DNA of 64,000 bases, taken from positions 5,890,001 to 5,954,000 of the forward strand of contig NC_079889.1 in the NCBI RefSeq assembly GCF_029227915.1. Reading direction: 5' to 3'. The notes under the pieces are model-generated. The model had not been told where the DNA came from. It saw only the letters and a list, made by a program, of their open reading frames with translations, and searched no databases. Positions 37,061-62,470 of the stretch are shown in pieces. The translations under genes and the position numbers were made by a program. Position 1 is the first letter of the stretch. Each line of letters begins with the position of its first letter. This DNA is from Hydractinia symbiolongicarpus. Its lineage: Eukaryota; Cnidaria; Hydrozoa; Anthoathecata; Hydractiniidae.

Positions 37061-37066
37061 TTCCAG

Positions 37067-38075
37067 GAAATGCTGTACATGTGTACGTACATGATGTATC
37101 ACCTGTAGAAACGTCAAGAAGGAACAGTAATGTTGCGTATTTCAATATGAAAATTCAGGCGGAAGAAAAAAATTACCGCGGAATTTCCTATCGTATGGAT
37201 TTGATGGAGGCTTTCGATTCTGCAATGGAACATAAATCTCCAGTAAAAATAACCACCGTTGTAACCAGGCCGAATAAGTTCTCAAATGAACTCATGGATT
37301 TAGAAGTTACGAAAGATTCCAATGTAGAACCGACAGATGCGTCCTTTGAATCAAAGCCAATGATAGTACAATCTGTAGATGTCACAGTCAAGGAAATCAA
37401 AGGCGGAAACCATGTAAACCAGTTGGTTAATGTAAAGGGTTTTTTAACTGTCGAAAACAGACCGACAACACTCATTACAATCCTAATGAAAACTGCCATT
37501 ATAAATGATGAAAATGATAACATGTTTGTGGAACTATGGGGATCATTTGCAACAAATGTTACTACAAATGGCTCATATGTATTGCAGAATTTACGTTTGA
37601 AGGAATGGCCAACAGGACTCTTCAAATTATCAACGCAAGGTTTGTCTAAAGTTGTAACATCTGATGAAATATTTGCTCCTTGTAATGATGACGTGGCCAC
37701 ATTGATTTTCAAATTGCAGATTTCCCCCCGATGAGTATTGAGTCCATATCTCGAAAGTTGGCGTGTCCCAAGTGTCGGAAAACATCACAGGATAACCATT
37801 CAACCTTGTTCATATGTTAGCATTGTCAATTATCTACATTAAAAAAGAATGCTAAGATAAATTTTACTTTATCAGCAATGTTCTTGGTTGAAAACAAGCC
37901 TGAAACAATCACATTGTTTTGGAATAGTGTTGAAGATTTTTACACCAAAGTTGCAATGCCGATTCCAGGTGACCAGAATCAAGTTGTGTATGATATGCTG
38001 TCGAAAGTTGGGATTAAAATACTATTTGATCGCACTGTGTTGGTTTCAAGTAATGCATTGAATAGACAAGCATAA
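37067..38075 (+). pseudogene. RPA-like OB-fold ssDNA-binding protein, last exon, two lesions
   Basis: An acceptor TTTCTTTCCAG (ends 37066) leads into an open frame reading VYVHDVSPVETSRRNSNVAYFNMKIQ..., an OB-fold/RPA1-like layout of about 220 residues. The frame breaks at a C6 run (37724-37729; seven C would keep the frame). It continues as MSIESISRKLACPKCRKTSQ, then ...FIC, TAG, HCQLSTLKKNAKINFTLS and MFLVENKPETITLFWNSVED, ending at TAA 38073-38075. CPKC...C.HC is the zinc-binding module of RPA-like C-terminal domains. The TAG replaces a Glu codon, as shown by GAG in the four copies of this segment downstream. Upstream exons are not identified. RPA-like genes of this kind are often carried by Helitrons, but no Rep/helicase is in the window. 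The segment from 37811 is the left end of the tandem array. Confidence 0.65.
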
Positions 38076-38379
38076 ACAGATACTTTATACTTTTATATTT
38101 TGTTTACTTTATTCGATTTTTTGAGATGTAGTTTATAACTCTTGTGATTTTGCGGTATAGCAACAAATGTGTTCTTTAAAACAGGAGTTATTTTACTTCT
38201 GTTTTAAAGAACATATATACATATATATACACATAGTATATCTTTACTATATTGATTTTCATCTCACGATTTTCATGTTGTATCACTCTTGTGATTTTGC
38301 GGTATAGCAGTAAATGTGTTCTTCAACGGGAGTGAAGTTTAGAGTATGTATATCTTTACTATATTGATTTGCATCTCAT

Positions 38380-38676
38380 GTGTTTATAATAAAAAAAGTA
38401 TTTCACTTGATTAGTGAGTATATAATCATTTTTCCTGGCTATCTCCACCATTTTGAAGCACTCGCGCCAGAATTTTGGGGCAATACTTTTCAGACCCCCG
38501 AACTTTTTACCTTCGAAGGTGTGTTGTCTTATTCAGCTTCGGGTTTGAGCGCCAACATTGAAAATCTCGCGATAAACTTCCTATTCATTTCCCGATTTGT
38601 CTTTCTGAACAACAGAACGACATATGGCATTGCGCCAAAAACGAGACAAAATTTGTTCCCGAAGTTTATCGTGTAA
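38380..38676 (+). CDS. Hypothetical 98-residue ORF of the array unit
   Basis: Open also in U3 (47025-47321), U4 (51624-51920) and, slightly shorter, U5 (58952-59221); deleted in U2. It is hydrophobic at the start (VFHLISEYIIIFPGYL). No family is recognised. The first codon is ATG in the others' alignment, but no promoter or splice evidence was found. The open frame may simply be shared by descent. Confidence 0.2.
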   Translation: MFIIKKVFHLISEYIIIFPGYLHHFEALAPEFWGNTFQTPELFTFEGVLSYSASGLSANIENLAINFLFISRFVFLNNRTTYGIAPKTRQNLFPKFIV

Positions 38677-38806
38677 ACCACCATACTACAAATCAGAGCC
38701 TTCATAGCAATTTCTCTGCGTTGTTATGGCTTATCAACTTTCATAGCGTAGCGCGATGCGGCCAGGCTCGACACGTATGAAACTAGGAACGATGGGGAAA
38801 CTGAAA

Positions 38807-39076
38807 TGTCCCATTAAGTCGTTTTCTATGAGAATCTTGTACTTTACTATAGACTGTTGAGAAGTAAGTTTTCTTTTGTGCGCTACGCTGATATTGTTAG
38901 ACGATATGTTGCTTTGAAATTGACTTTGAATGCAATGCGCAACAAAAGACAGCGAATATTTTCTCAGAAGGTTTTGGTTCCAGGGACCGGTAGATTATTT
39001 CATCGATCCCGAACTTACTGTGTTCCAAAAACTAGTAAAGTACAAGATTCTCATAGAAGACGACTTAAGTGGGACA
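38807..39076. repeat. Inverted-repeat-bounded segment, found in both orientations within the array
   Basis: Left arm 38807-38849 and right arm 39033-39076 are near-perfect reverse complements (TGAGAATCTTGTACTTTACTA against TAGTAAAGTACAAGATTCTCA, plus flanks). The enclosed segment reads GAAGTAAGTTTTCTTTTGTG... in U1, U3, U4 and U5. In U2 (about 42969-43171) the same segment is reverse-complemented next to the right arm. Confidence 0.8.
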
Positions 39077-39278
39077 TTGATAGACTAAAAACGCAAAGAA
39101 ATGGTCCATGGATAGGCTAGGGACCGGGAAAATTTGTCCCATTTAGCGAAAGTCCTACTTATCTGAAACATTTGCACACAGATGGTTATAGACGCAAGTC
39201 TTCTTGTTTTTGTATAAAGCGTCGCTTGATGATAACAAAAAAGTGAAGATGTGGTGTTGTTTGTATCTCCAAGTTTAC

Positions 39279-39981
39279 CTTGCAAACACCGTTAATTATT
39301 TTCTGATGGAAGTCAGGTTTAGTACAGACGGCAGTACTGAAAGCAATATTTGTCAGGCTTATGAATTTTTTGCATGCTGCTTTAGCTTGTATGACTAACT
39401 TATCATGGTTTAGAAATAATAATCTAGCCAATCCATCCACAACCGCCTTCCAAGAACTTTTATAAAAACTTTTAGCCTTAGAAACTAATCTCCTGAGTGA
39501 ATTAAGGGAAAACAAGGGTGATATTTTATTACTTGCTTATTTATTAAAAAAGTCGACATTTTGCTTTCTAAATTTTCTCAGATACCAGCAAAAAGCCCGA
39601 GCAATGGATTAACAGTTCCATTGTAAGGAAAAACATTTTTACGACACTATTCTTAAAACCAACATTAAGATATGTTTAGAAAATGGTATTGCAGGGTAAT
39701 TTTTATTTAGCTAACTTATCAATTAAATAAAAACAACAAATGAGGAAATAAGCGCCCAGTGGGGATACACACTCAGCGTGTCAAACTTTGATATAAAGAA
39801 CATTTTGCAACAGTACTTATTTTAAATAAAATGCGATGTAGTAGGTAACGAGAAATTAGAGTTCGACATTTATTATTTTTCCTACCAATATTGCTATTTG
39901 TTAACTCAACTCCGAGACATAAAAAAACTGCCATTAACAAAACATAAAAAAACTTTTAAACATTTCCTTAGGCTTCATCAT
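39279..39981 (-). pseudogene. Secreted cationic protein 2, unit 1 copy, signal exon broken
   Basis: Exon B (39484-39279) is open and equivalent to the U2/U3 copies. In exon A the start ATGATGAAGCC is present at 39981, but a small indel changes the frame and gives TAA after about 14 codons. Unit 1 alone keeps a CAG acceptor (TTTCAG near 39160) for a third exon. See the unit 3 entry for the model. Confidence 0.35.
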
Positions 39982-40710
39982 AACGCTAGCTTTATGTTGT
40001 AGTTCGAGCCTACACAAACATGGATTATTAAAAATGTCGTTAAACGGTTTTTTATTTAAAAATGAGAAAACTTAATAGTGATGCCAAAAAAAACACCTAT
40101 ATTTTCAGTGTTAAATTACGAAGAGAATTTGAACATTAAAACGACATAACACAAAACTTATTTTCACAATGGAAGTTATCAAGAACGAGGGATAACCCAC
40201 TTTTAAAAAGTCTGTCTCAATATAGAACGATGCATTCTAACAGAATGGAATTACATTTAATATTTAAGCCGACTCCAGACGAAAATAGAAATGATTGGCC
40301 ATTATCACATCCCAGAAAACAAGAGACGCGCTATTCCCTCAGAAATATAGTTTTTTTGTGCTTCGCAAAACATGTAATATTATGTTCTGGCACATGCGCC
40401 ATTAAATGGTTTAAAATGAGTTTTTTTTATAAAAATGTCAAACAATGACATAATGAGCGAACTAAATTCTGTGCTCTGTATTAACATCAGTATGAAAAGA
40501 TCAGTATTTAGCTGTATCTGTTTGTTCGGTTATAGGAACATAACAATAACAAAAGCTAAAACCCTATTGGTAAAATATAATCAAAAGAAATGTTTGTGTT
40601 TATTTTCCTGGAAATGGGCTCCTGATGATTCGTCGTGGATAATAAAATCGTCGTCGTCGGCGGGAAGATCTTCTTCGTCGGCCATATTATCTACGTCGGC
40701 GAGAATATCT

Positions 40711-41292
40711 TCATCGGCGGGAAGATCTTCTTCGTCGGCGGCGTGAAAACCAGGCCGCGGGATCTTAAAGAGCATTAAATTAAATATTTATATAAAGATC
40801 TAAGTTCTAAACGTGCTACGGGAAAGACCAGTTTTACCTTGTTCCTCGCCATCTTTTTCTTCGACAGCGCTGTCGCTCTTTTCAATATCATTTCCTTCTT
40901 CGTCTTCTGCACAAAAAGTTAATAGGTAAAAGGTTTTTTTTCCATAAAGCACTAAGATGTTAGAGAAACTGAATATTAAAAGCAATACAAACCATCGTTT
41001 ATTTCTTCTGGGTCACTGTCTTCGACTTCATCATGGTCATTCCCTTCGGTGAAATCCTCTTTTTCTTCGTCTTCTGAAGGGTCTAATTCGGAAGTATCAT
41101 CAACAGCATCTTCTTGAACTTTTATTTTTTGCTCTACAAAATTAGCCTGTTTGTTAACCTTTAATCCTTATTGTGAAAGCTTTGTATTAACTATTTTATA
41201 GAAAATCAAGCTAAAACACAAAAAATCTGAAATCTACCTGCGCATAGAACGGCAACGAATCCGAAAAGCAGCACCAAGTGAATTAACTTCAT
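40711..41292 (-). CDS. Signal-acidic-propiece-Arg-tail precursor, unit 1 (antimicrobial-peptide-like), shortened tail
   Basis: Coding exons 41292-41238, 41133-40993, 40906-40838 and 40763-40711, all with GT-AG borders and phase 1. A 5' untranslated exon ends at the donor 41483/41482 (AAG/GTATGT), and the ATG follows an acceptor CCATTCTTAG. Exon 1 encodes a signal peptide (KLIHLVLLFGFVAVLCA). Exons 2-3 encode about 70 residues dominated by Asp/Glu. Exon 4 encodes DPAAWFS then an Arg-rich tail. This is the charge-balanced precursor layout of cationic host-defence peptides (for example Hydra arminins); no sequence match to a named family is claimed. In this copy a C-to-T change makes TGA at 40713-40711, removing the last eight residues present in the other units; predicted length 105. 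A TATA box lies at 41561-41554. A protamine-like or matrix role is an alternative, but the signal peptide argues for secretion. Confidence 0.65.
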
Positions 41293-41553
41293 CTAAGAAT
41301 GGAAACAAAGTGCGTTAAAATGGATAATTTATAATCATTCATCTTGTGATAGGAAGTGTGCGATGCAAAAAAATTGTCGCAAAATTCAACAGGAACACAA
41401 AGAAAAATAGTTTATTACTACGAAAAAAAACAACGAGATACTGTCATGCGCTCTTAATATAAATATACAGAGGGTTACATACCTTGTTTACTACTCTGAT
41501 ATTATCAGCGCAGTGTTCTGCTTTTTCACTGACGAATTCTAAATCCTTTACCC

Positions 41554-41561
41554 TTTATATA
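41554..41561 (-). promoter_or_regulatory. TATA box, unit 1 Arg-tail gene
   Basis: TATATAAAGG on the minus strand, about 70 bases upstream of the 5' exon donor. Confidence 0.6.
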
Positions 41562-41883
41562 CTGTCTTAGAGAAGTTTAGGGTAATTAAACAGAAAAATA
41601 TCGATTTAAAACTATAATGATTAATCCAGGGGGAGATAAACATGTTATTTTTCGTCAAATTGCTAAAATTAAAATGATAACAAACCTCCCTAACCACGTG
41701 TTTGTGGAAAACTAGTAAAGTATTTGTAAAACTATGCTTCGATTGAAAAGATGTAATTGTAGGCGTAGGCGTCATTTTGATAAACCGCAAATTATTTTAC
41801 ACTCGTTACAAAGTCCTGTGGGCTCATTTGGTTTCAAAACAGTAGAAAGGAAGTTTCTTATTTCTGCATATTTTAAGGTGAAT

Positions 41884-42072
41884 TTAAAAAAATGAGAGTG
41901 GAAAATAAGAATTTTGAAAGAACAAAGGCGGGAAATAGGAATTTGTAAAGACGGAGGGCAAAAAATAAGACTTTAAAGCTATTGTACGAGCTGTACTTCC
42001 CCACATTGTCTGGTCAGAAACAAGTTTTGTTGCGGATTGCACGAAATATAAAAACGATACACGAACTATCAT
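41884..42072 (-). CDS. Hypothetical 62-residue ORF conserved in all five units
   Basis: Open in U1-U5 (46010-46198, 50609-50797, 57910-58098, 61796-61984). It starts MIVRVSFLYFVQSATKLVSD and ends in Phe/Tyr/Pro-rich repeats (NSYFPPLF, NSYFPLSF). No promoter, no family. Conservation may reflect recent duplication only. Confidence 0.2.
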   Translation of the reverse strand: MIVRVSFLYFVQSATKLVSDQTMWGSTARTIALKSYFLPSVFTNSYFPPLFFQNSYFPLSFF

Positions 42073-42222
42073 GAAATAAGTAGAAGAATATATTGTTCTT
42101 GTTTATTTTAAACGCCAAGTTTGCATCGATTTAATTGCTTGCTTAGTTCAACCCGATAGAGTTTCACACCACCATCATTGGTTTTGGAAGTGCTTGTAAT
42201 ATTCTGTAGGCGCCATAGCTAG

Positions 42223-42594
42223 ATGCATTTTAATTTACACGGACGGAACACAGCACTGCTGTTTCTTTGTGTCAGCAAATGTGTTAGTAGTGTTAAGGTA
42301 GGTTTCCATACGACTGCATTTTCCGAGCTCATATGTGAGCATTGTCAATTATCTACATTAAAAAAGAATGCGAAGATAAATTTTACTTTATCAGCAATGT
42401 TCTTGGTTGAAAACAAGCCTGAAACAATCACATTGTTTTGGAATAGTGTTGAAGATTTTTACACCAAAGTTGCAATGCCGATTCCAGGTGACCAGAATCA
42501 AGTTGTGTATGATATGCTGTCGAAGGTTGGGCTTAAAATACTATTTGATCGCACTGTGTTGGTTTCAAGTAATGCATTGAATAGACAAGCATAA
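42223..42594 (+). CDS. Chimeric junction ORF 1 (U1/U2)
   Basis: 123 codons crossing the duplication breakpoint at 42329/42330. The first 36 residues come from the right end of one unit (MHFNLHGRNTALLFLC...), the rest from the RPA-like zinc and C-terminal segment of the next (CEHCQLSTLKKNAK...). Ends at the RPA stop. The frame is open in all four junctions. Expression is unknown. Confidence 0.4.
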   Translation: MHFNLHGRNTALLFLCVSKCVSSVKVGFHTTAFSELICEHCQLSTLKKNAKINFTLSAMFLVENKPETITLFWNSVEDFYTKVAMPIPGDQNQVVYDMLSKVGLKILFDRTVLVSSNALNRQA

Positions 42595-43416
42595 ACAGAT
42601 ACTTTATACTTTTATATTTTGTGTACCTTCTTCGATTTTTTGAGATGTAGTTTATAACTCTTGTGATTTTGCGGTATAGCAACAAATGTGTTCTTTAAAA
42701 CAGGAGTTATTTTACTTCTGTTTCAAAGAACATATATTGATAACTATATTAATTTTCATCTCACGATTTTCATGTTGTATCACTCTTGTGATTTTGCGGT
42801 ATAGCAACAAATGTGTTCTTTAAAACAGGAGTTATTTTACTTCTGTTTCAAAGAACATATATTGATAACTATATTGATTTTCATCTCACGATTTTCATGT
42901 TGTGATTTATAGCAGTAAATGTGTTCTTCAACGGGAGTGAAGTTTAGAGTATATCTTTAAATTAAAAATCTACGAAAGTTGATAGACCCAGAGGATCACA
43001 GTAAGTTCGGGGTCGATGAAATATGCTACCGGTCTTTGGAACCAAAAACTTCTGAGAAAATATTCGCTGTCTTTTGTTGCGCATTGCATTCAAAGTTAAT
43101 TTCAAAGCAACATATCGTCTAACAATATCAGCGTAGCGCACAAAAGAAAACTTACTTCTCAACAGTCTATAGTAAAGTACAAGATTCTCATAGAAGACGA
43201 CTTAAGTGGGACATTGACAGACTGAAAACGTAGAGAAATGGTACATGGATAAGCTAGGGACCGGGAAAATTTGTCCCATTTAGCGAAAGTCCTACTTATC
43301 CGAAACATTTGCACACAGATGGTTATAGACGCAAGTCTTCTTGTTTTGTATATAGCGTCGCTTGATGATAACAAAAAAGTGAAGATGTGGTGTTGTTTGT
43401 ATCTCCAAGTTTGTAC

Positions 43417-44111
43417 CTTGCAAACACCGTTAATTATTTTCTGATTGAAGTCAGGTTTAGTACAGACGGCAGTACTGAAAGCAATATTTGTCAGGCTTAT
43501 TAATTTTTTGCATGCTGCTTTAGCTTGTATGACTAACTTATTATAGTTTAGAAATAATAATCTAGCCAATCCATCCACAACCGCCTTCCAAGAACTTTTA
43601 TAAAAACTGTTAGCCTTAGAAACTAATCTCCTGAGTGAATTAAGGGAAAACAACGGAGATATTTTATTACTTGCTTATTTATTAAAAAAGTCGACATTTT
43701 GCTTTCTAAATTTTCTCAGATACCAGCAAAAAGCCCGAGCAATGGATTAACAGTTCCATTGTAAGGAAAAACATTTTTACGACACTATTCTTAAAACCAA
43801 CATTAAGATATGTTTAGAAAATGGTATTGCAGGGTAATTTTTATTTAGCTAACTTATCAATTAAATAAAAACAACAAATGAGGAAATAAGCGCCCAGTGG
43901 AGAAACACACTCAGCGTGTCAAACTTTGATATAAAGAACATTTTGCAACAGTACTTATTTTAAATAAAATGCGATGTAGTAGGTAACGAGAAATTGGAGT
44001 TCGACATTTATTATTTTTCCTACCAATATTGCTATTTGTTAACTCAACTCCGAGACATAAAAAAACTGCCACCAACAAACATAAATAAAACATTTTGTTA
44101 GGCTTCATCAT
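43417..44111 (-). CDS. Secreted cationic protein 2, unit 2 copy
   Basis: Exon A 44111-44024 encodes MMKPNKMFYLCLLVAVFLCL, a signal-peptide-like start, and ends at a GTAGGA donor in phase 1. Exon B 43622-43417 restores the frame with SKAKSFYKSSWKAVVDGLAR and includes AACKK, TAVCTK and NGVCK, ending at an AAG/GTACAA donor in phase 0. The 3' exon is uncertain because the TTTCAG acceptor seen in unit 1 is TTTCGG here. Alternatively the exon A frame simply continues unspliced to a stop at 43911, giving a 66-residue Lys/Arg-rich secreted peptide. Either way the product is small, secreted and basic. Not recognised as a family. Confidence 0.4.
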
Positions 44112-44812
44112 AACGCGTAGCTTTATGTTGTAGTTCGAGCCTACACAAACATGGATTATTAAAAATGTCGTTAAACGGTTTTTTATTTAAAAATGAGAAA
44201 ACTTAATAGTGATGCCAAAAAAAACACCTATGTTTTCAGTGTTAAATTACGAAGAGAATTTGAACATTAAAACGACATAACACAAAACTTCTTTTCAAAA
44301 TGGAAGTTATCAAGAACGAGGGATAACCCACTTTTAAAAGGTCTGTCTCAATATAGAACGATGCATTCTAACAGAATGGAATTACATTTAATATTTAAGC
44401 CGACTCCAGACGAAAATAAAAATGATTGGCCATTATCACATCCCAGAAAACAAGAGACGCGCTATTCCCTCAGAAATATAGTTTTTTTGTGCTTCGCAAA
44501 ACATGTAATATTATGTTCTGGCACATGCGCCATTAAATGGTTTGAGTTTTTTTTATAAAAATGTCAAACAATGACATAATGAGCGAACTAAATTCTGTGC
44601 TCTGTATTAACATCAGTATGAAAAGATCAGTATTTAGCTGTATCTGTTTGTTCGGTTATAGGAACATAACAATAACAAAAGCTAAAACCCTATTGGTAAA
44701 ATATAATCAAAAGAAATGTTTGTGTTTATTTTCCTGGAAATGGGCTCCTGATGATTCGTCGTGGATAATAAAATCGTCGTCGTCGGCGGGAAGATCTTCT
44801 TCGTCGGCCATA

Positions 44813-45418
44813 TTATCTACGTCGGCGAGAATATCTTCGTCGGCGGGAAGATCTTCTTCGTCGGCGGCGTGAAAACCAGGCCGCGGGATCTTAAAGAGCA
44901 TTAAATTAAATATTTATATAAAGATCTAAGTTCTAAACGTGCTACGGGAAAGACCAGTTTTACCTTGTTCCTCGCCATCTTTTTCTTCGACAGCGCTGTC
45001 GCTCTTTTCAATATCATTTCCTTCTTCGTCTTCTGCACAAAAAGTTAATAGGTAAAAGGTTTTTTTTCCATAAAGCACTAAGATGTTAGAGAAACTGAAT
45101 ATTAAAAGCAATACAAACCATCGTTTATTTCTTCTGGGTCACTGTCTTCGACTTCATCATGGTCATTCCCTTCGGTGAAATCCTCTTTTTCTTCGTCTTC
45201 TGAAGGGTCTAATTCGGAAGTATAAACAACAGCATCTTCTTGAACTTTTATTTTTTGCTCTACAAAATTAGCCTGTTTGTTAACCTTTAATCCTTACTGC
45301 GAAAGCTTTGTATTAACTATTTTATAGAAAATCAAGCTAAAACACAAAAAATCTGAAATCTACCTGCGCATAGAACGGCAACGAATCCGAAAAGCAGCAC
45401 CAAGTGAATTAACTTCAT
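44813..45418 (-). CDS. Signal-acidic-propiece-Arg-tail precursor, unit 2
   Basis: Exons 45418-45364, 45259-45119, 45032-44964, 44889-44813, all phase 1; 113 residues. It has the full tail: after DPAAWFS come six Arg, two Ser, four Arg, Tyr-Ser and four Arg before TAA 44815-44813. Exon 2 has Val-Tyr where other copies have Asp-Asp. 5' exon donor at 45610/45609; TATA at 45688-45681. This is the best candidate for the intact ancestral form. Confidence 0.68.
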
Positions 45419-45680
45419 CTAAGAATGGAAACAAAGTGTGTTAAAATGGATAATTTATAATCATTCATCTTGTGATAGGAAGTGTGCGATGCAAAAAAAA
45501 TTGTCGCAAAATTCAACAGGAACACAAAGAAAAATAGTTTATTACTACGAAAAAAAACAACGAGATACTGTCATGCGCTCTTAATATAAATATACAGAGG
45601 GTTACATACCTTGTTTACTACTCTGATATTATCAGCGCAGTGTTCTGCTGTTTCACTGACGAATTCTAAATCCTTTACCC

Positions 45681-45688
45681 TTTATATA
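45681..45688 (-). promoter_or_regulatory. TATA box, unit 2 Arg-tail gene
   Basis: TATATAAAGG, same position as in unit 1. Confidence 0.6.
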
Positions 45689-46348
45689 CTGTCTTACAGA
45701 AGTTCAGGGTAATTAAACAGAAAAATATCGATTTAAAACTATAATGATTAATCCAGGGGGAGATAAACATGTTATTTTTCGTCAAATCGCTAAATTAAAA
45801 TGATAACACACCTCCCTAACCACGTGTTTGTGGAAAACTAGTAAAGTATTTGTAAAACTATGCTTCGATTGAAAAGATGTAATTGTAGGCGTAGGCGTCA
45901 TTTTGATAAACCGCAAATTATTTTACACTCGTTACAAAGTCCTGTGGGCTCTTTTGGTTTCAAAACAGTAGAAAGGAAGTTTCTTATTTCTGCATATTTT
46001 AAGGTGAATTTAAAAAAATGAGAGTGGAAAATAAGAATTTTGAAAGAACAAAGGCGGGAAATAGGAATTTGTAGAGACGGAGCGCAAAAAATAAGACTTT
46101 AAAGCTATTGTACGAGCTGTACTTCCCCACATTGTCTGGTCAGAAACAAGTTTTGTTGCGGATTGCACGAAATATAAAAACGATACACGAACTATCATGA
46201 AGTAAGTAGAAGAATATCTTGTTCTTGTTTATTTTAAACGCCAAGTTTGCATCGATTTAATTGCTTGCTTAGTTCAACCCGATAGAGTTTCACACCACCA
46301 TCATTGGTTTTGGAAGTGTTTGTAATATTCTGTAGGCGCCATAGCTAG

Positions 46349-46720
46349 ATGCATTTTAATTTACACGGACGGAACACAGCACTGCTGTTTCTTTGTGTAA
46401 GCAAATCTGTTAGTAGTGTTAAGGTAGGTTTCCATACGACTGCATTTTCCGAGCTCATATGTGAGCATTGTCAATTATCTACATTAAAAAAGAATGCTAA
46501 GATAAATTTTACTTTATCAGCAATGTTCTTGGTTGAAAACAAGCCTGAAACAATCACATTGTTTTGGAATGGTGTTGAAGATTTTTACACCAAAGTTGCA
46601 ATGCCGATTCCAGGTGACCAGAATCAAGTTGTGTATGATATGCTGTCGAAAGTTGGGCTTAAAATACTATTTGATCGCACTGTGTTGGTTTCAAGTAATG
46701 CATTGAATAGACAAGCATAA
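46349..46720 (+). CDS. Chimeric junction ORF 2 (U2/U3)
   Basis: Same 123-codon chimera as at 42223-42594, crossing 46455/46456. Asn-Ser in the RPA part reads Asn-Gly here. Confidence 0.4.
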   Translation: MHFNLHGRNTALLFLCVSKSVSSVKVGFHTTAFSELICEHCQLSTLKKNAKINFTLSAMFLVENKPETITLFWNGVEDFYTKVAMPIPGDQNQVVYDMLSKVGLKILFDRTVLVSSNALNRQA

Positions 46721-48025
46721 ACAGATACTTTATACTTTTATATTTTGTTTACTTTATTCGATTTTTTGAGATGTAGTTTATAACTCTTGTGATTTTGCGG
46801 TATAGCAACAAATGTGTTCTTCAAAACAGGAGTTATTTTACTTCTGTTTTAAAGAACATATATACATATATATACACATAGTATATCTTTACTATATTGA
46901 TTTTCATCTCACGATTTTCATGTTGTATCACTCTTGTGATTTTGCGGTATAGCAGTAAATGTGTTCTTCAACGGGAGTGAAGTTTAGAGTATGTATATCT
47001 TTACTATATTGATTTGCATCTCATGTGTTTATAATAAAAAAAGTATTTCACTTGATTAGTGAGTATATAATCATTTTTCCTGGCTATCTCCACCATTTTG
47101 AAGCACTCGCGCCAGAATTTCGGGGCAATACTTTTCAGACCCCCGAACTTTTGACCTTCGAAGGTGTGTTGTCTTATTCAGCTTCGGGTTTGAGCGCCAA
47201 CATTGAAAATCTCGCGATAAACTTCGTATTCATTTCCCGATTTGTCTTTCTGAACAACAGAACGACATATGGCATTGCGCCAAAAACGAGACAAAATTTG
47301 TTCCCGAAGTTTATCGTGTAAACCACCATACTACAAATCAGAGCCTTCATAGACAATTTCTCTGCGTTGTTATGGCTTATCAACTTTTATAGCGTAGCGC
47401 GATGCGGCCAGGCTCGACACGTATGAAACTAGGAACGATGGGGAAACTGAAATGTCCCACTTAAGTCGTCTTCTATGAGAATCTTGTACTTTACTATAGA
47501 CTGTTGAGAAGTAAGTTTTCTTTTGTGCGCTACGCTGATATTGTTAGACGATATGTTGCTTTGAAATTGACTTTGAATGCAATGCGCAACAAAAGACAGC
47601 GAATATTTTCTCAGTTTTGGTTCCAGGGACCGGTAGCCTATTTCATCGACCCGGAACTTACTGTGTTCCTCTGGGTCTATTAACTTTCGTAGATATTTGG
47701 GTACGAAATCTGTCAAATCTCAAAACTACGGAGCATGCGCAGATTAGAAATCCTCCGAGTCCATAATGCGGCGTTTTTGTCGTTCTCAGTTCCTTATGTT
47801 ACGCCCGGCCCGTACCACGCTTTGATAGACTGAAAACGCAGAGAAATGGTCCATGGATAGGCTAGGGACCGGGAAAATTTGTCCCATTTAGCGAAAGTCC
47901 TACTTATCCGAAACATTTGCACACAGATGGTTATAGACGCAAGCCTTCTTGTTTTTGTATAAAGCGTCGCTTGATGATAACAAAAAAGTGAAGATGTGGT
48001 GTTGTTTGTATCTCCAAGTTTGTAC

Positions 48026-49414: not shown

Positions 49415-50017
49415 TTATCTACGTCGGCGAGAATATCTTCGTCGGCGGGAAGATCTTCTTCGTCGGCGGCGTGAAAACCAGGCCGCGGGATCTTAAAGAG
49501 CATTAAATTAAATATTTATATAAAGATCTAAGTTCTAAACGTGCTACGGGAAAGACCAGTTTTACCTTGTTCCTCGCCATCTTTTTCTTCGACAGCGCTG
49601 TCGCTCTTTTTAATATCATTTCCTTCTTCGTCTTCTGCACAAAAAGTAAATAGGTAAAAGGTTTTTTTTCCATAAAGCACTAAGATGTTAGAGAAACTGA
49701 ATATTAAAAGCAATACAAACCATCGTTTATTTCTTCTGGGTCACTGTCTTCGACTTCATGGTCATTCCTTTCGGTGAAATCCTCTTTTTCTTCGTCTTCT
49801 GAATGGTCTAATTCGGAAGTATCATCAACAGCATCTTCTTGAACTTTTATTTTTTGCTCTACAAAATTAGCCTGTTTGTTAACCTATAATCCTTATTGCG
49901 AAAGCTTTGTATTAACTACTTTAAAGAAAATCAAGCTAAAACACAAAAAATCTGAAATCTACCTGCGCATAGAACGGCAACGAATCCAAAAAGCAGCACC
50001 AAGTGAATTAACTTCAT
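49415..50017 (-). CDS. Signal-acidic-propiece-Arg-tail precursor, unit 3, degenerate TATA
   Basis: Exons 50017-49963, 49858-49721, 49634-49566, 49491-49415; phases all 1; 112 residues, one codon shorter in the acidic exon 2 (a 3-base in-frame deletion). Full Arg tail as in unit 2. The promoter differs: the TATA position reads TATGTAAAGG (50279-50286), so expression may be weaker. 5' exon donor at 50208/50207. Confidence 0.66.
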
Positions 50018-50278
50018 CTAAGAATGGAAACAAAGTGCGTTAAAATGGATAATTTATAATCATTCATCTTGTGATAGGAAGTGTGCGATGCAAAAAAATT
50101 GTCGCAAAATTCAACAGGAACGCAAAGAAAAATAGTTTATTAATACGAAAAAAAACAACGAGATACTGTCATGCGCTCTTAATATAAATATACAGAGGGT
50201 TACATACCTTGTTTACTACTCTGATATTATCAGCGCAGTGTTCTGCTGTTTCACTGACGAATTCTAAATCCTTTATCC

Positions 50279-52624: not shown

Positions 52625-53323
52625 CTTGCAAACACCGTTAATTATTTTCTGATTGAAGTCAGGTTTAGTACAGACGGCAGTACTGAAAGCAATATTTGTC
52701 AGGCTTATTAATTTTTTGCATGCTGCTTTATCTTGTATGACTAACTTATCATAGTTTAGAAATAATAATCTAGCCAATCCATCCACAACCGCCTTCCAAG
52801 AACTTTTAAAACTTTTAGCCTTAGAAACTAATTTCCTGAGTGAATTAAGGGAAAACAAGGGAGATATTTTATTACTTGCTTATTTATTAAAAAAGTCGAC
52901 ATTTTGCTTTCTAAATTTTCTCAGATACCAGCAAAAACCCCGAGCAATGGAATAACAGTTCCATTGTAAGGAAAAACATTTTACGACACTATTCTTAAAA
53001 CCAACATTAAGATATGTTTAGAAAATGATATTGCAGGGTAATTTTTATTTAGCTAACTTATCAATTAAATAAAAACAACAAATGAGGAAATAAGCGCCCA
53101 GTGGGGATACACACTCAGTGTGTCAAACTTTGATATAAAGAACATTTTGCAACAGTACTTATTTTAAATAAAATGCGATGTAGTAGGTAACGAGAAATTA
53201 GAGTTCGACATTTATTATTTTTCCTACCAATATTGCTATTTGTTAACTCAACTCCGAGACATAAAAAAACTGCCACCAACAAAACATAAAAAAACTTTAA
53301 AACAATTTCTTAGGCTTCATCAT
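52625..53323 (-). pseudogene. Secreted cationic protein 2, unit 4 copy, signal exon broken
   Basis: Exon B (52827-52625) is identical by eye to unit 3, but exon A starting at 53323 meets TAA after eight codons. Shows that gene 2 is lost independently of the Arg-tail gene. Confidence 0.35.
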
Positions 53324-53977
53324 AACGCTTAGCTTTGTTGTAGTTCGAGCCTACACAAACATGGATTATTCAAATTGTCGTGAAACGGTGATGCCAAAAA
53401 ATCACCTATGTTTTCAGTGTTAAATTACGAAGAGAATTTGAACATTAAAACGACATAACACCAAAACTTATCTTCACAATGGAAGTTATCAAGAACGAGG
53501 GATAACCCACTTTTAAAAAGTCTGTCTCAATATAGAACGATGCATTCTAACAGAATGGAATTACATTTAATATTTAAGCCGACTCCAGACGAAAATAGAA
53601 ATGATTGGCCATTATCACATCCCGGAAAACAAGAGACGCGCTATTCCCTCAGAAATATAGTTTTTTTGTGCTTCGCAAAACATGTAATATTATGTTCTGG
53701 CATATGCGCCATTAAATGGTTTAAAATGTCAAACAATGACATAATGAGCGAACTAAATTCTGTGCTCTGTATTAACATCAGTATGAAAAGATCAGTATTT
53801 AGCTGTATCTGTTTGTTCGGTTATAGGAACATAACAATAACAAAAGCTAAAACCCTATTGGTAAAATATAATCAAAAGAAATGTTTGTGTTTATTTTCCT
53901 GGAAATGGGCTCCTGATGATTCGTCGTGGATAATAAAATCGTCGTCGTCGGCGGGAAGATCTTCTTCGTCGGCCATA

Positions 53978-54601
53978 TTATCTACGTCGGCGAGAATATC
54001 TTCGTCGGCGGGAAGATCTTCGTCGGCGAGAAGATCTTCTTCGTCGGCGGCGTGAAAACCAGGCCGCGGGATCTTAAAGAGCATTAAATTAAATATTTAT
54101 ATAAAGATCTAAGTTCTAAACGTGCTACGGGAAAGACCAGTTTTACCTTGTTCCTCGCCATCTTTTTCTTCGACAGCGCTGTCGCTCTTTTCAATATCAT
54201 TTCCTTCTTCGTCTTCTGCACAAAAAGTAAATAGGTAAAAGGTTTTTTTTCCATAAAGCACTAAGATGTTAGAGAAACTGAATATTAAAAGCAATACAAA
54301 CCATCGTTTATTTCTTCTGGGTCACTGTCTTCGACTTCATCATGGTCATTCCCTTCGGTGAAATCCTCTTTTTCTTCGTCTTCTGAAGGGTCAAATTCGG
54401 AAGTATCATCAACAGCATCTTCTTGAACTTTTATTTTTTGCTCTACAAAATTAGCCTGTTTGTTAACCTTTAATCCTTAATGCGAAAGCTTTGTATTAGC
54501 TATTTTATAGAAAATCAAGCTAAAACACAAAAAATCTGAAATCTACCTGCGCATAGAACGGCAACGAATCCGAAAAGCAGCACCAAGTGAATTAACTTCA
54601 T
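53978..54601 (-). CDS. Signal-acidic-propiece-Arg-tail precursor, unit 4, extended tail
   Basis: Exons 54601-54547, 54442-54302, 54215-54147, 54072-53978; all phase 1; 119 residues. Exon 4 has an extra 18 bases in frame, adding one Arg4-Ser2 block to the cationic tail. Intron 1 carries a 2718-bp insertion (54767-57484), so the 5' exon (donor 57510/57509, GTACGT) and TATA box (57588-57581) lie about 3 kb upstream. Both splice sites are intact, so the gene may still be expressed. Confidence 0.63.
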
Positions 54602-54766
54602 CTAAGAATGGAAACAAAGTGCGTTAAAATGGATAATTTATAATCATTCATCTTGTGATAGGAAGTGTGCGATGCAAAAAAATTGTCACAAAATTCAACA
54701 GGAACACAAAGAAAAATAGTTTATTACTACAAAAAAAAACAACGAGATATTGTCATGCGCTCTTAA

Positions 54767-57484
54767 TTGCGCCCCGCCGAAGGGGCGCACATTTAGTGGA
54801 CCGCGGGTATATAGTGTTTGTTTTATGTATGGGAGAAGTTTTTTTCTTACTCTCAACTTCGCGGGGGAACTTCGGCTCGAACATCCAACCTAGGTTTGAT
54901 ATAACACAACCTGTGTGTTTGGTACCATCGAGACAAAAATAACACTGATCGAGCAAAACTTATCTTGTCTCGGTTTCTTTGTTGTCTCTGAAGATTTGAC
55001 TGCCATAAAAAATATTAATCGAGATTCTTTTGTTATGTTAATTTAAAGCTTTGTAGTATTGTCTCGTTTAATATGCTTAAATGTCACTGCAGCCCACGTG
55101 AATTTATCTTCAAGAAAAGGTTGGTTTTTCTTTGTCCAAGTTGTTTCGAAACTTGTTAACAGTAAGTAGAAGGATTACTTATATTTTATATGAAATTAAA
55201 CTCGGAACGGTTTATGGCGTTGATCCAAAGGCCGCAATTTATAAATGCATCACAATTTAAAGTCAATCAAGAACAGAAAATTCCGTGTATGGCCATGACT
55301 AAAACTGCTTGCATTTTGTTGGTCTTCCCTTCCCGATGGTCTGGCTTGTCGTAATAGCTTTAATGATGTAGCTAGGGAGCTAAATACTTATTTTTAAATT
55401 CTTGCATTTTATAAGTTAATAGTCGTAAAACTACTCTCACTTGTACTACAGCTATCAAGCTAGAACTGCACAAAATAGTGCTTTCATTAGAGTCCCTTTT
55501 TTCAGAAGCAACAAAAAACTTTTATCCTGCCCTGTGTAATTTTATCAACAAGGGTGCTGATAAGCCACATACACCGTAAAAAGTATAGGCGTTTTGGGTG
55601 AGTAAAATAACTTCTAAAGGAACCTTTGTGAGGCTGCTATCATGTATTCTTGCGGTCAGAATGTTCTCCTTCGTTGCTATCCGATGGAGAACAAAGTGGA
55701 CTTTTCACGGTCAAACCTTCAAAGTAGCAACCTTACTTAAACAGAATTTACAAGTAAAACGTCGTTAAAATGTCGCAAAATGGCAAAAATTAAGCAGTAT
55801 CTAAAACATATTAAAGATTTGACTAAAAAAAAAATTCCTTGAAAAATCCAGTATTGTATTTATGAAGATTTCACCACAAAAACATTAATTACGGCATTTG
55901 TACCCCATTTCATAATGGCTGCCCGTGATTGGTTGACACGAATCCGACCGCAAGAATATATATAAAAAGATATTTGTTGAATCATGAAAAAATATTGTTG
56001 TTCATTGCACGGAACAGTCAAGTTGAACTGATAAATTAACCAATAACATAACATAGTTAGCCCTTGCAGTACAACTAGACGCTACCCGCAGTATGTTACA
56101 GGTTTCTTTGTTTTCTTCCCTTTTTTATGTTTTTTCTTGAAATTATAAATGATGTTGTTGATTTATCAAATCTGACAAATTTATTAATTGAGTGTCTACC
56201 CTTTTTTGTATCAACTTGTTCAATTCAATTCGAAAACAATGACCAATCAATTTCCTCGATAATAAACAATCAAATTTGTAAAATTCAATAAATCGATTTC
56301 AACAAAATAAGTCCTGTATTGTCCACAGGTTTTAAAATCTTGTATCGCCTGCTTAATATTATACTTGTTTAACAATGATATCAAAGCCAGCTTGACTAAA
56401 TTTATATATATATTTTTATTTATATAGTATACCTTTTGTGTATCACATGGCATTGATTTGTATCTTTTTAATAAATTCTAACTTTAAATCAGATAAGTAG
56501 ACAATAATTAAACAACCTAGTATTAATTCAGTTCTGGTAAAATTTTATTCTTCTTTCTCAATTTTAAATATACTTTCTTTTTCAGATCATTTGTTATGAA
56601 ACCATGCACCATCAGCATTTTCGAAAAATCTTTAACGAGAGAAATTTTTAAGGATTTTATTGGTAACTTAACAGAGTAATAATTCATTGAAATTGAAATT
56701 GTTCAGAAGTTATTATATATATTCGAATCGTGAAGTTCATACATAGCAATCCTGCATCCTGGAATTTTCGAGATCAGTTATAAAAAAATCCAGTTAAAGT
56801 TTTAACTATTGTTTTAGAATATATACTATATATATGTAAAAAAAAAATTATTTTTTATTTATCAAGTTGTATTTTACGTTAATTACAATAATAATTGAGA
56901 ATTAGGATACTTATGATGTGTTTATATACCCCATTGTTCTCCGTTTTAAAGTCTACTTCAAATTTCAGAATCTTTTAGGCTAATGACGGAAATCTTCAAG
57001 TCGCAGGGCTTCTTATTTAAAAATTTTCCCCTGGGGAATAAGCTTATTCACAAGCCTCTATGCAATTCCGTACTGCATTTCTATCATATTCGTCATATTT
57101 GGCGGAAAATGTTTCAGCAGAATAGCTTTCAGACACAATTTGTTATTACAGCACAAGAATTTTTGGAGATTTGATAAGTCAAAAATGTATGCGTAAGTCT
57201 TTTGAACGAATTTTAACCAAAAATCAAAAGCAATGATTACGTGAAATTACACAACAAGAAGGCTAGAGGCGTTTAAAGTGTACATATATTTAATCAAGAT
57301 CTAACTTTATAGATACAGCCTTAGCCAAATGTGAAAATAACGAAAATAATAAGTTCTAACACTGCAGTTTTTATAGATTTCAAACGTCCACCATTTTCCA
57401 TTTTAATTTTAAATCCCGTTCTAAATTTGAATGTTTGAAATCGTTATTAGTAATTTGGGGCGCATTAGTGGTAACTATGGCTAG
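54767..57484. mobile_element. 2718-bp insertion in unit 4 intron 1, Helitron-like termini
   Basis: Compared with the other units (CTCTTAATATAAATATAC) the insertion lies between A (54766) and T (57485) with no target duplication and ends CTAG, as Helitrons do. However, the 5' end is TT instead of TC and no clear 3' hairpin is seen. The left end has GCGCCCC-GCCGAA-GGGGCGC (hairpin) followed by ACATTTAGTGG. The right end has a similar direct block GGGGCGCATTAGTGG. No ORF of note inside. Confidence 0.55.
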
Positions 57485-57580
57485 TATAAATATACAGAGG
57501 ATTACGTACCTTGTTTACTACTCTGATATTATCAGCGCAGTGTTCTGCTTTTTCACTGACGAATTCTAAATCCTTTACCC

Positions 57581-57588
57581 TTTATATA
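57581..57588 (-). promoter_or_regulatory. TATA box, unit 4 Arg-tail gene
   Basis: TATATAAAGG, separated from the coding exons by the intronic insertion. Confidence 0.55.
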
Positions 57589-58248
57589 CTGTCTTAGAGA
57601 AGTTTAGGGTAATTAAACAGAAAAATATCGATTAAAACTATAATGATTAATCCAGGGGGAGATACACATGTTATTTTTCGTCAAATTGCTAAAATTAAAA
57701 TGATAATACACCTCCCTAACCACGTGTTTGTGGAAAACTAGTAAAGTATTTGTAAAATTATGCTTCGATTGAAAAGATGTAATTGTAGGCGTAGGCGTCA
57801 TTTTGATAAACCGCCAATTATTTTACACTCGTTACAAAGTCCTGTGGGCTCTTTTGGTTTCAAAACAGTAGAAAGGAAGTTTCTTATTTCTGCATATTTT
57901 AAGGTGAATTTAAAAAAATGAGAGTGGAAAATAAGAATTTTGAAAGAACAAAGGCGGGAAATAGGAATTTGTAAAGACGGAGGGCAAAAAATAAGACTTT
58001 AAAGCTATTGTACGAGCTGTACTTCCCCACATTGTCTGGTCAGAAGCAAGTTTTGTTGCGGATTGCACGAAATATAAAAACGATATACGAACTATCATGA
58101 AATAAGTAGAAGAATATCTTGTTCTTGTTTATTTTAAACGCCAAGTTTGCATCGATTTAATTGCTTGCTTAGTTCAACCCGATAGAGTTTCACACTACCA
58201 TCATTGGTTTTGGAAGTGTTTGTAATACTCTGTAGGCGCCATAGCTAG

Positions 58249-58620
58249 ATGCATTTTAATTTACACGGACGGAACACAGCGCTGCTGTTTCTTTGTGTAA
58301 GCAAATCTGTTAGTAGTGTTAAGGTAGGTTTCCATACGACTGCATTTTCCGAGCTCATATGTGAGCATTGTCAATTATCTACATTAAAAAAGAATGCGAA
58401 GATAAATTTTACTTTATCAGCAATGTTCTTGGTTGAAAACAAGCCTGAAACAATCACATTGTTTTGGAATAGTGTTGAAGATTTTTACACCAAAGTTGCA
58501 ATGCCGATTCCAGGTGACCAGAATCAAGTTGTGTATGATATGCTGTCGAAAGTTGGGCTTAAAATACTATTTGATCGCACTGTGTTGGTTTCAAGTAATG
58601 CATTGAATAGACAAGCATAA
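58249..58620 (+). CDS. Chimeric junction ORF 4 (U4/U5)
   Basis: Same 123-codon chimera crossing 58355/58356. Confidence 0.4.
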   Translation: MHFNLHGRNTALLFLCVSKSVSSVKVGFHTTAFSELICEHCQLSTLKKNAKINFTLSAMFLVENKPETITLFWNSVEDFYTKVAMPIPGDQNQVVYDMLSKVGLKILFDRTVLVSSNALNRQA

Positions 58621-60599
58621 ACAGATACTTTATACTTTTATATTTTGTTTACTTTATTCGATTTTTTGAGATGTAGTTTATAACTCTTGTGATTTTGCGG
58701 TATAGCAACAAATGTGTTCTTCAAAACAGGAGTTATTTTACTTCTGTTTTAAAGAACATATATACATATATATACACATAGTATATCTTTACTATATTGA
58801 TTTTCATCTCACGATTTTCATGTTGTATCACTCTTGTGATTTTGCGGTATAGCAGTAAATGTGTTCTTCAACGGGAGTGAAGTTTAGAGTATGTATATCT
58901 TTACTATATTGATTTGCATCTCATGAGTTTATAATAAAAAAAGTATTTCACTTGATTAGTGAGTATATAATCATTTTTCCTGGCTATCTCCACCATTTTG
59001 AAGCACTCGCGCCAGAATTTCGGGGCAATACTTTTCAGACCCCCGAACTTTTGACCTTCGAAGGTGTGTTGTCTTTTTCAGCTTCGGGTTTGAGCGCCAA
59101 CATTGAAAATCTCGCGATAAACTTCGTATTCATTTCCCGATTTGTCTTTCTGAACAACACAACGACATATGGCATTGCGCCAAAAACGAGACAAAATTTG
59201 TTCCCGAAGTTTATCGTGTAAACCACCATACTACAAATCAAAGCCTTCATAGACAATTTCTTTGCGTTGTTATGGCTTATCAACTTTTATAGCGTAGCGC
59301 GATGCGGCCAGGCTCGACACGTATGAAACTAGGAACGATGGGGAAACTGAAATGTCCCACTTAAGTCGTCTTCTATGAGAATCTTGTACTTTACTATAGA
59401 CTGTTGAGAAGTAAGTTTTCTTTTGTGCGCTACGCTGATATTGTTAGACGATATGTTGCTTTGAAATTGACTTTGAATGCAATGCGCAACAAAAGACAGC
59501 GAATATTTTCTCAGAAGGTTTTGGTTCCAGGGACTGGTAGACTATTTCATCGACCCCGAACTTACTGTGTTCCTCTAACATTAAGATATGTTTAGAAAAT
59601 GATATTGCAGGGTAATTTTTATTTAGCTAACTTATCAATTAAATAAAAACAACAAATGAGGAAATAAGCGCCCAGTGGGGATACAAACTCAGCGTGTCAA
59701 ACTTTGATATAAAGAACATTTTGCAACAGTACTTATTTTAAATAAAATGCGATGTAGTAGGTAACGAGAAATTAGAGTTCGATATTTATTATTTTTCCTA
59801 CCAATATTGCTATTTGTTAACTCAACTCCGAGACATAAAAAAACTGCCACCAACAAAACATAAAAAAACTTTAAAACATTTCCTTAGGCTTTATCATAAC
59901 GCGTAGCTTTATGTTGTAGTTCGAGCCTACACAAACATGGATTATTAAAAATGTCGTTAAACGGTTTTTTATTTAAAAATGAGAAAACTTAATAGTGATG
60001 CCAAAAAAAACACCTATGTTTTCAGTGTTAAATTACGAAGAGAATTTGAACATTAAAACGACATAACACAAAACTTATTTTCACAATGGAAGTTATCAAG
60101 AACGAGGGATAACCCACTTTTAAAAAGTCTGTCTCAATATAGAACGATGCATTCTAACAGAATGGAATTACATTTAATATTTAGGCCGACTCCAGACGAA
60201 AATAGAAATGATTGGCCATTATCACATCCCAGAAAACAAGAGACGCGCTGTTCAATCAGAAATATAGTTTTTTTGTGCTTCGCAAAAACATGTAATATTA
60301 TGTTCTGGCACATGCGCCATTAAATGGTTTAAAATGAGTTTTTTTTATAAAAATGTCAAACAATGACATAATGAGCGAACTAAATTCTGTGCTCTGTATT
60401 AACTTCAGTTTGAAAAGATCAGTATTTAGCTGTATCTGTTTGTTCGGTTGTAGGAACATAACAATAACAAAAGCTAAAACCCTATTGGTAAAATATAATC
60501 AAAAGAATGTGTTCATTTTCCTGGAAATGAGCTCCTGATGATTCGTCGTGGATAATAAAGTCGTCGTCGTCGGCGGGAAGATCTTCTTCGTCGGCCATA

Positions 60600-61205
60600 T
60601 TATCTACGTCGGCGAGAATATCTTTGTCGGCGGGAAGATCTTCTTCGTCGGCGGCGTGAAAACCAGGCCGCGGGATCTTAAAGAGCATTAAATTAAATAT
60701 TTATATAAAGATCCAAGTTCTAAACGTGCTACGGGAAAGACCAGTTTTACCTTGTTCCTCGCCATATTTTTCTTCGACAGCGCTGTCGCTCTTTTCAATA
60801 TCATTATCTTCTTCGTCTTCTGCACAAAAAGTAAATAGGTAAAAGGTTTTTTTTCCATAAAGCACTAAGATGTTAGAGAAACTGAATATTAAAAGCAATA
60901 CAAACCATCGTTTATTTCTTCTGGGTCACTGTCTTCGACTTCATCATGGTCATTCCCTTCGGTGAAATCCTCTTTTTCTTCGTCTTCTGAAGGGTCTAAT
61001 TCGGAAGTATCATCAACAGCATCTTCTTGAACTGTTATTTTTTGCTCTACAAAATTAGCCTGTTTGTTAACCTTTAATCCTTACTGCGAAAGCTTTGTAT
61101 TAACTATTTTATAGAAAATCAAGCTAAAACACAAAAAATCTGAAATCTACCTGCGCATAGAACGGCAACGAATCCGAAAAGCAGCACCAAGTGAATTAAC
61201 TTCAT
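60600..61205 (-). CDS. Signal-acidic-propiece-Arg-tail precursor, unit 5
   Basis: Exons 61205-61151, 61046-60906, 60819-60751, 60676-60600; all phase 1; 113 residues. The second Arg block has one Arg-to-Gln change (CGA to CAA). 5' exon donor 61396/61395; TATA 61474-61467. In this unit gene 2 exon B is deleted (junction near 59577), yet the Arg-tail gene is complete. Confidence 0.66.
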
Positions 61206-61466
61206 CTAAGAATGGAAACAAAGTGCGTTAAAATGGATAATTTATAATCATTCATCTTGTGATAGGAAGTGTCCGATGCAAAAAAATTGTCCTAAAATTC
61301 AACAGGAACACAAAGAAAAATAGTTTATTACTACGAAAAAAAACAACGAGATACTGTCATGCGCTCTTAATATAAATATACAGAGGGTTACATACCTTGT
61401 TTACTACTCTGATATTATCAGCGCAGTGTTCTGCTTTTTCACTGACGAATTCTAAATCCTTTACCC

Positions 61467-61474
61467 TTTATATA
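61467..61474 (-). promoter_or_regulatory. TATA box, unit 5 Arg-tail gene
   Basis: TATATAAAGG in the same context as units 1 and 2. Confidence 0.6.
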
Positions 61475-62470
61475 CTGTCTTAGAGAAGTTTAGGGTAATC
61501 AAACAGAAAAATATCGATTTAAAACTATAATGATTAATCCAGGAAGAGATAAACATGTTATTTTCGTCAAATTGCTAAAATTAAAATGATAACACACCTC
61601 CCTAACCACGTGTTTGTGGAAAACTAGTAAAGTATTTGTAAAACTATGCTTCGATTGAAAAGATGTAATTGTAGGCGTAGGCGTCATTTTGATAAACCGC
61701 AAATTATTTTACACTCGTTACAAAGTCCTGTGGGCTCTTTTGGTTTCAAAACAGTAGAAAGGAAGTTTCTTATTTCTGCATATGTTAAGGTGAATTTAAA
61801 AAAATGAGAGTGGAAAATAAGAATTTTGAAAGAACAAAGGCGGGAAATAGGAATTTGTAAAGACGGAGGGCAAAAAATAAGACTTTAAAGCTATTGTACG
61901 AGCTGTACTTCCCCACATTGTCTGGTCAGAAACAAGTTTTGTTGCGGATTGCACGAAATATAAAAACGATACACGAACTATCATGAAATAAGTAGAAGAA
62001 TATCTTGTTCTTGTTCATTTTAAACGCCAAGTTTGCATCGATTTAATTGCTTGCTTAGTTCAACCCGATAGAGTTTCACACTACCATCATTGGTTTTGGA
62101 AGTGTTTGTAATACTCTGTAGGCGCCATAGCTAGATGCATTTTAATTTACACGGACGGAACACAGCACTGCTGCTTCTTTGTGTCAGCAAATCTGTTAGT
62201 AGTGTTAAGGTAGGTTTCCATACGACTGCATTTTCCGAGCTTTTCCCACAAGCATGCGCAATGAAGTAGAATGACCGTTGACCCGACGTAAAAAGATGCT
62301 TCCGAGCTTCTCCCAAAAAGTTAAACTCATTCAACTTTTTCAGCGCGTATTTTTTCCCTCAAGCTTGTCGGCCAGTGAAATTCAAGAAAAATTTAAACCT
62401 TGCGTAATCCTTCCAGTGACCTAAATTTTGGTGCAATTCCTTTTCATAACAAGTTTAAGAAAATATCAAG

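Follow-up and report, generated by a model that had tools for sequence, protein, structure and literature searches.

We analysed a window of 64,000 nucleotides (nt) from the hydrozoan Hydractinia symbiolongicarpus (C15:5890001-5954000, in an assembly of 480.9 Mb and 76 contigs, labelled C1, C5, C8, C13, C14, C15 etc. below) and found that a real gene is present in it in five recent tandem copies; this gene is predicted from its exon structure, its frame and its constraint against divergent paralogs to encode a small secreted precursor with halves of opposite charge. Judged from the sequence, the gene model and the family are solid. As to function, the likeliest single explanation, to which we assign a probability of roughly 0.5, is that the precursor would release its polycationic tail as a host-defence peptide. 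Labels beginning with P or L followed by a locus number denote family or look-alike loci.

Structure of the tandem array

The five units lie on the minus strand, with their ATG codons at 41292, 45418, 50017, 54601 and 61205, and in each of them the four coding exons are preceded by a TATA-like box and a first exon that is non-coding:

40711-41292 (-), unit 1, coding exons 41238-41292, 40993-41133, 40838-40906, 40711-40763; 105 amino acids (aa), TGA-cut tail
41483-41560 (-), unit 1, TATA-like box (from 41560) and non-coding exon 41483-41530
44813-45418 (-), unit 2, coding exons 45364-45418, 45119-45259, 44964-45032, 44813-44889; 113 aa
45610-45687 (-), unit 2, TATA-like box (from 45687) and non-coding exon 45610-45657
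49415-50017 (-), unit 3, coding exons 49963-50017, 49721-49858, 49566-49634, 49415-49491; 112 aa
50208-50285 (-), unit 3, TATA-like box ATGTAAAG (from 50285) and non-coding exon 50208-50255
53978-54601 (-), unit 4, coding exons 54547-54601, 54302-54442, 54147-54215, 53978-54072; 119 aa, tail 18 nt longer
57510-57587 (-), unit 4, TATA-like box (from 57587) and non-coding exon 57510-57557, 2908 nt upstream of the ATG exon
60600-61205 (-), unit 5, coding exons 61151-61205, 60906-61046, 60751-60819, 60600-60676; 113 aa
61396-61473 (-), unit 5, TATA-like box (from 61473) and non-coding exon 61396-61443

All 15 coding introns, three per unit, have GT-AG ends, and the lengths of coding exons 1-3 (55, 141 and 69 nt, with 138 nt for the second exon of unit 3) place every coding junction in phase 1. 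An earlier note on this DNA had described a five-gene tandem family with four coding exons, GT-AG sites and uniform phase 1, and was correct in these respects; the TATA-like box and non-coding exon upstream of each copy are an addition to that description. The start of the leader exon was placed in all five units by analogy with a spliced 76-nt match elsewhere in the genome (L013, see below). The leader intron measures 190-191 nt in four units and 2908 nt in unit 4, whose box and non-coding exon lie far upstream because its first intron holds about 2.7 kb of extra DNA (54768-57480), which is without counterpart in the other four units. Across the 20 repeat families shown, ungapped copies are mostly 91-100% identical, and identity drops to 65-89% where copies differ by insertions or deletions, e.g. 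in unit 4.

The family does not begin at position 37811, as had been noted before, since this position is the start of repeated non-gene sequence:

37810-38109 (+), non-family sequence within the repeated segment, first of five copies (the others from 42329, 46455, 51054 and 58355)

Open frames at 37042-38075 (+) recur with their 3' part in every tandem unit, from the same four positions, and the duplication boundary therefore seems to lie inside another gene. These frames are reminiscent of a replication-protein-A type gene, a likeness for which a Pfam scan gave no support.

Encoded proteins and state of the copies

The predicted proteins of units 1-5 have 105, 113, 112, 119 and 113 aa. They start with a hydrophobic, signal-like N-terminus (MKLIHLVLLFGFVAVLCA), judged here and in the paralogs by hydropathy alone, which contains their single Cys; an acidic region of 69-70 aa with 33-35 Asp+Glu residues follows, and then the motif DPAAWFS and runs of Arg. 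The net charge is -27 to -32 in the acidic part and +8 to +18 in the tail. Thus, the previously described order of signal peptide, about 70 Asp/Glu-rich residues and Arg tail is confirmed, with the signal resting on hydropathy. The tails of units 1-5 contain 8, 14, 14, 18 and 13 Arg residues, so that the count of 8 given earlier for unit 1 stands, whereas the range of 12-18 for the other four should read 13-18. Those four copies had also been called full-length, but stops cut the tails in all five units. A common TAA ends units 2-5, while unit 1 stops sooner at a TGA, with the same TAA lying beyond; past the shared TAA there are 28 further in-frame Arg-rich codons, with one additional stop in unit 3. 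In comparison with these stop-cut tails, the tail of the paralog P14 has 56 aa.

Stops in all five tails suggest, tentatively, that the window array is decaying while the family works elsewhere, i.e. that recent copies with truncated tails are under relaxed constraint, which would be compatible with each of the functional readings below. Exons 1-3 vary at 11 of 262 columns and introns 1-3 at 8 of 264, nine of the ten changed codons in exons 1-3 are nonsynonymous, where 78% would be expected in the absence of selection (P = 0.32 for at least this many; a 3-nt deletion was set aside), and the substitutions within the array look neutral. The failure of the unit 4 protein to find a database protein (see below) points in the same direction. 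On the other hand, splice sites, exon 1-3 frames and TATA-like boxes are kept in all five copies, a close copy was apparently transcribed and spliced, and the changes are too few for a strong test. For the same reason, and with changes that look neutral, selection inside the array is unsupported. In the window, the gene may be present as five short versions or as five that are decaying.

Divergent paralogs and the frame of exon 4

Is this gene more than a chance arrangement of open frames? Genome searches, whose locus counts are lower bounds, yielded at least 15 family loci including the five window units, with nine further modelled loci and the tail exon of L063. Charges below are given as acidic part/tail:

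P14 (C14), 56-aa tail, charge -25/+25
P15a (C15), cut tail RRSFSSSTQ
P15b (C15), charge -51/+48
P5 (C5), charge -37/+54
P9a (C15), charge -40/+32
P9c and P9d (C15, in tandem), charge -46/+55 (P9c) and -42/+55 (P9d)
P1a and P1b (C1), one coding exon, two silent codon differences between them, charge -15/+51 each
L063 (C8:8208200-8209800, last exon only read), 396 aa from HDP on (HDPLFFG), 172 Arg, Arg-repeat tail

The divergent paralogs keep exons, phases and frame, and in exons 1-3 the nonsynonymous divergence (dN) between the units and P14/P15a is 0.23-0.26, below the synonymous divergence (dS) of 0.78-0.80; we therefore take the gene to be beyond chance. One further locus, L064 (C1:23602637), did not read like the family and was dropped. 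The long tails are built of RRRSxx hexapeptide repeats of very different length, up to 396 aa, and five of the eight long-tailed paralogs (P14, P15b, P5, P9a, P9c, P9d, P1a, P1b) end in Gly, possibly an amidation signal.

A second frame of exon 4, which is acidic, is open as well, as CGA-CGA-AGA-AGA shifted by one gives Asp-Glu-Glu-type codons, and in the window copies this frame extends beyond the stop of the Arg frame. The product might then be acidic throughout and the Arg frame a by-product. Counting synonymous:nonsynonymous codons over the first 19 codons for unit 2/P14, unit 2/P9a and P14/P9a, pairs that share ancestry and are not independent events, we found 9:2, 11:4 and 11:6 in the Arg frame, 1:8, 1:14 and 3:14 in the acidic frame and 0:9, 1:13 and 1:13 in the third frame. 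The tail repeats of P15b (13 units; 135:29 in the Arg frame versus 30:119 in the acidic frame) and of L063 (15 units; 183:45 versus 40:219) agree with this, and the NCBI models use the Arg frame. Only the 13 near-identical repeats of P5 point the opposite way, varying silently in the acidic frame (5:53 in the Arg frame versus 53:1 in the next). Since codon changes between divergent paralogs favour the Arg frame, exon 4 is most probably read in this frame, and we rejected an all-acidic product as extremely unlikely.

Transcription, splicing and database models

A locus on another contig, L013 (C8:11693866-11693941), matches at 76 of 76 nt the leader exon of unit 3 spliced directly onto its ATG exon; no other among the 30 hits of the spliced query spans the junction by more than a few bases. 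The match starts 30 nt downstream of the TATA-like box, at a position expected for a transcript start, although the leader starts were taken from L013 and this agreement is not independent. L013 looks like the captured 5' end of a messenger RNA, which would mean germ-line transcription and splicing of a copy close to unit 3; for the 5' end of such a copy, both processes are strongly indicated. Downstream of L013, we noticed by eye a stretch resembling a retroelement of the type without long terminal repeats, with a 2A-like motif.

In a protein profile search of the database, which scored 7986 candidates, six proteins were listed as matches (P0001 to P0006). Three of these listed matches, from two genes, are NCBI proteins of the family, the only ones that the protein searches listed for the 15 loci and for the six of the second set. 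P0002 (LOC130629115 isoform X1) is identical to the P15a model that we built from the assembly, P0001 is identical from residue 56 on to the P9a model, and P0003 (LOC130629115 isoform X2) is without two residues at the start of exon 3, a difference that would fit a second acceptor 6 nt on. P0001-P0003 are true family members. They differ from the window proteins in their tails, which are longer in P9a (P0001) and cut in P15a (P0002 and P0003). The name of P0001, 'acidic leucine-rich nuclear phosphoprotein 32 family member B-like', fits its acidity only; no ANP32 or leucine-rich Pfam match was found at E 0.01. P0005 is short, 97% identical to part of P0001 and a relative of the P9a acidic exon, and was not used.

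A search with the unit 4 protein gave no match at E <= 0.001 among 535 scored candidates, and the window copies therefore seem to be missing from that protein database. Nine family or look-alike proteins gave no Pfam match above the curated cut-offs and sub-threshold matches only. In the open-licence literature, no listing or passage describing the family was found, and the antimicrobial peptide (AMP) predictions for Podocoryna name no such family in the excerpted text (PMC13119343). The family may already sit among the sequences of the H. symbiolongicarpus transcriptome.

Loci with a cationic amphipathic stretch

A second set of six loci, the modelled locus P13 (C13) and five of which only the last exon was read (L033, L034, L035, L036 and L039), combines an acidic part and an Arg run with a cationic stretch of 33-36 residues and Cys. 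The six-locus set is also listed as L031, L033, L034, L035, L036 and L039. The Arg-run motif DPGWGRRRRRR occurs in five of the six, a C-terminal Gly in all six, and in each locus the helical moment of the hand-chosen cationic stretch was reached by 0-3 of 2000 shuffles. We regard these loci as candidate helical AMPs themselves. Are they kin of the window family? Scored with the main-family profile, P1a and P9c clearly beat 500 of 500 shuffles, P13 scored 42.0 against 40.7 for the best shuffle, a narrow difference, and the score of the L033 exon was reached by 130 of 500. A search of P13 against solved structures returned a single match (E 0.0039) across the acidic part. Kinship with the window family is weak, and we take the second set to hint at a defence role without proving common descent.

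Possible relatives in other cnidarians

The two remaining proteins of the profile search are P0006, a predicted protein of Nematostella (E 6.5e-7), and P0004, a eukprot record (E 1e-9), possibly an Aurelia sequence to judge by the style of its name, which seems to fuse two genes. P0006 and the first half of P0004 are divergent from the Hydractinia family but resemble it in having an acidic region followed by (D/N)P...GRRRR and an Arg/aromatic tail. Each outscored 500 of 500 segment-composition shuffles, a case that is overstated as both were chosen as best matches; for the second half of P0004, 499 of 500 segment shuffles reached its score. Homology of P0006 and the first P0004 half to the family is suggested.

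Other features of the window

137-1042 (-), reverse-transcriptase frame, PF00078
8822-9568 (-), Ras-family small GTPase in one open frame, PF00071
25560-25805 and 26720-26992 (+), trypsin-like protease exons, PF00089
29360-29704 (+), DUF4116 repeat frame, PF13475
62660-62992 (+), BESS-motif frame, PF02944
25030-25392 and 31987-32334, long simple-repeat tracts with several frames open simultaneously

Discussion

How could such a precursor work? We propose that the hydrophobic N-terminus would direct the protein to secretory granules, where the Asp/Glu region would mask the Arg tail during storage. A proprotein convertase would then cut the basic run that follows the DP-hydrophobic-[S/G] boundary, the long-tailed paralogs ending in Gly may be amidated, and the freed polycation would act in host defence by binding to the anionic surfaces of microbes. 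Having lost the distal tail to stops, the window copies would represent a short poly-Arg version or else genes whose constraint is relaxed. This defence reading is favoured because the paralogs stand in tandem, the bipartite charge is that of Hydra AMPs, the second set carries amphipathic stretches and five of eight long-tailed paralogs end in Gly; antimicrobial action itself is a putative property of the family.

Arminin precursors of Hydra have an anionic part, and the window proteins share the arminin layout of signal peptide (by hydropathy only), anionic part and cationic C-terminal part. More generally, Hydra AMP precursors are described with a signal peptide, a bias in the distribution of charge and paralogs in clusters (PMC10945409). 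In alpha-defensins, an anionic prosegment is believed to hold the cationic peptide in an inactive state (PMC3308943). On paper, the family would work like both, although it is without the defensin Cys pattern and the likeness to alpha-defensins is one of working principle only. Arminins are likewise secreted precursors with parts of opposite charge, a cationic C-terminal part and tandem paralogs (PMC10945409, PMC11767717). However, they are described as alpha-helical (PMC11767717), whereas the tail of our family is an Arg run or RRRSxx repeat, and they are reported from Hydra only, with none found in Hydractinia or Clytia according to the excerpts of PMC10945409. The window, coming from Hydractinia, is thus not assigned to a family published as confined to the genus Hydra, and no Hydra protein was among the matches listed in protein searches that need shared words. 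Periculins also combine an anionic N-terminal with a cationic C-terminal region in large tandem families (PMC10945409, PMC11767717), but periculin-1 has eight Cys in its cationic part (PMC11767717), while units 1-5 have one N-terminal Cys and no Cys array, which sets them apart from periculins.

Several observations weigh against a released defence peptide. As helices, the Arg tails fall below most of their own shuffles in amphipathicity, so that a classical amphipathic-helix AMP is unsupported for the window tails. Even for the whole P13 tail, the best 18 residues were reached by 5.7% of shuffles and are not clear-cut, and the kinship of the second set is weak. The charges are near balance in some paralogs (P14, P15b), but far off balance in P1a/P1b and the window copies; a correlation of -0.62 between acidic and tail charge covers four paralogs, too few points to use. 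To this we add the P5 repeats, the neutral-looking, mostly nonsynonymous changes in the array and some tails, up to the 396 aa of L063, that are far too long for a classical AMP. An AlphaFold model of P0001 alone, with a mostly low-confidence acidic part, a long tail helix and a mean confidence score (pLDDT) of 58.6 overall, carries little weight for a single Arg-rich sequence.

The RRRSxx repeats and the 396-aa tail make a secreted polyelectrolyte the main rival. Acidic and Arg blocks would co-condense within granules, and once secreted they would make up a component of a coacervate, glue, mucus or matrix, with the tail as a structural polycation. Polymers of such varying length, up to 172 Arg in L063, speak for this role, as do tails that are not amphipathic and two blocks of low complexity, and the 396-residue tail fits a structural polycation no less than an AMP; the C-terminal Gly of several paralogs and the six loci with amphipathic stretch and Cys fit peptides better, and tandem paralogs fit defence genes. 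On balance, we consider the polyelectrolyte possible but clearly less probable than a host-defence peptide. The regular repeats and acidic spacer could also recall a multi-copy regulatory peptide precursor, cut by convertases at each RRR to release many short peptides. This is improbable, as only three residues would be left per unit after trimming, the repeats are without internal Gly amidation sites and such units are almost absent from the window tails.

The composition of fish protamines resembles that of the window tails, as would be expected for a protamine-like nuclear protein of sperm. We regard this as very improbable in view of the conserved hydrophobic signal-like N-terminus and the acidic region, and sperm extracts of the sister species H. 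echinata held histones and no protamines in the excerpted account (PMC5011920).

Returning to host defence, the proposal of the earlier note, a new AMP-like family amplified by tandem duplication, holds in part: the tandem family, the layout of Hydra AMPs and the absence of Pfam matches above cut-off speak for it, but with stop-cut tails and neutral-looking changes the copies are not supported as intact AMP genes. More tentatively still, the family might belong to a cnidarian-wide class of secreted precursors, an acidic region joined to an Arg-hexapeptide polymer of 10 to about 390 residues, that would predate the split of Anthozoa and Medusozoa and have spread by gene and repeat duplication. 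In Hydractinia it may also have yielded the second set, with the Arg run leading into an amphipathic helix with Cys, so that one design would give both polycations and helical AMPs.

Published work, in the excerpts of PMC10945409, reports that Hydractinia has no homologue of the antimicrobial families known from Hydra; the family described here is a concrete candidate for the antimicrobials of this model of colony life. The range of tail lengths within one genome would allow a direct test of how the acidic region and the length of the polycation are matched, and of Arg repeats as antimicrobials versus secreted polyelectrolytes.

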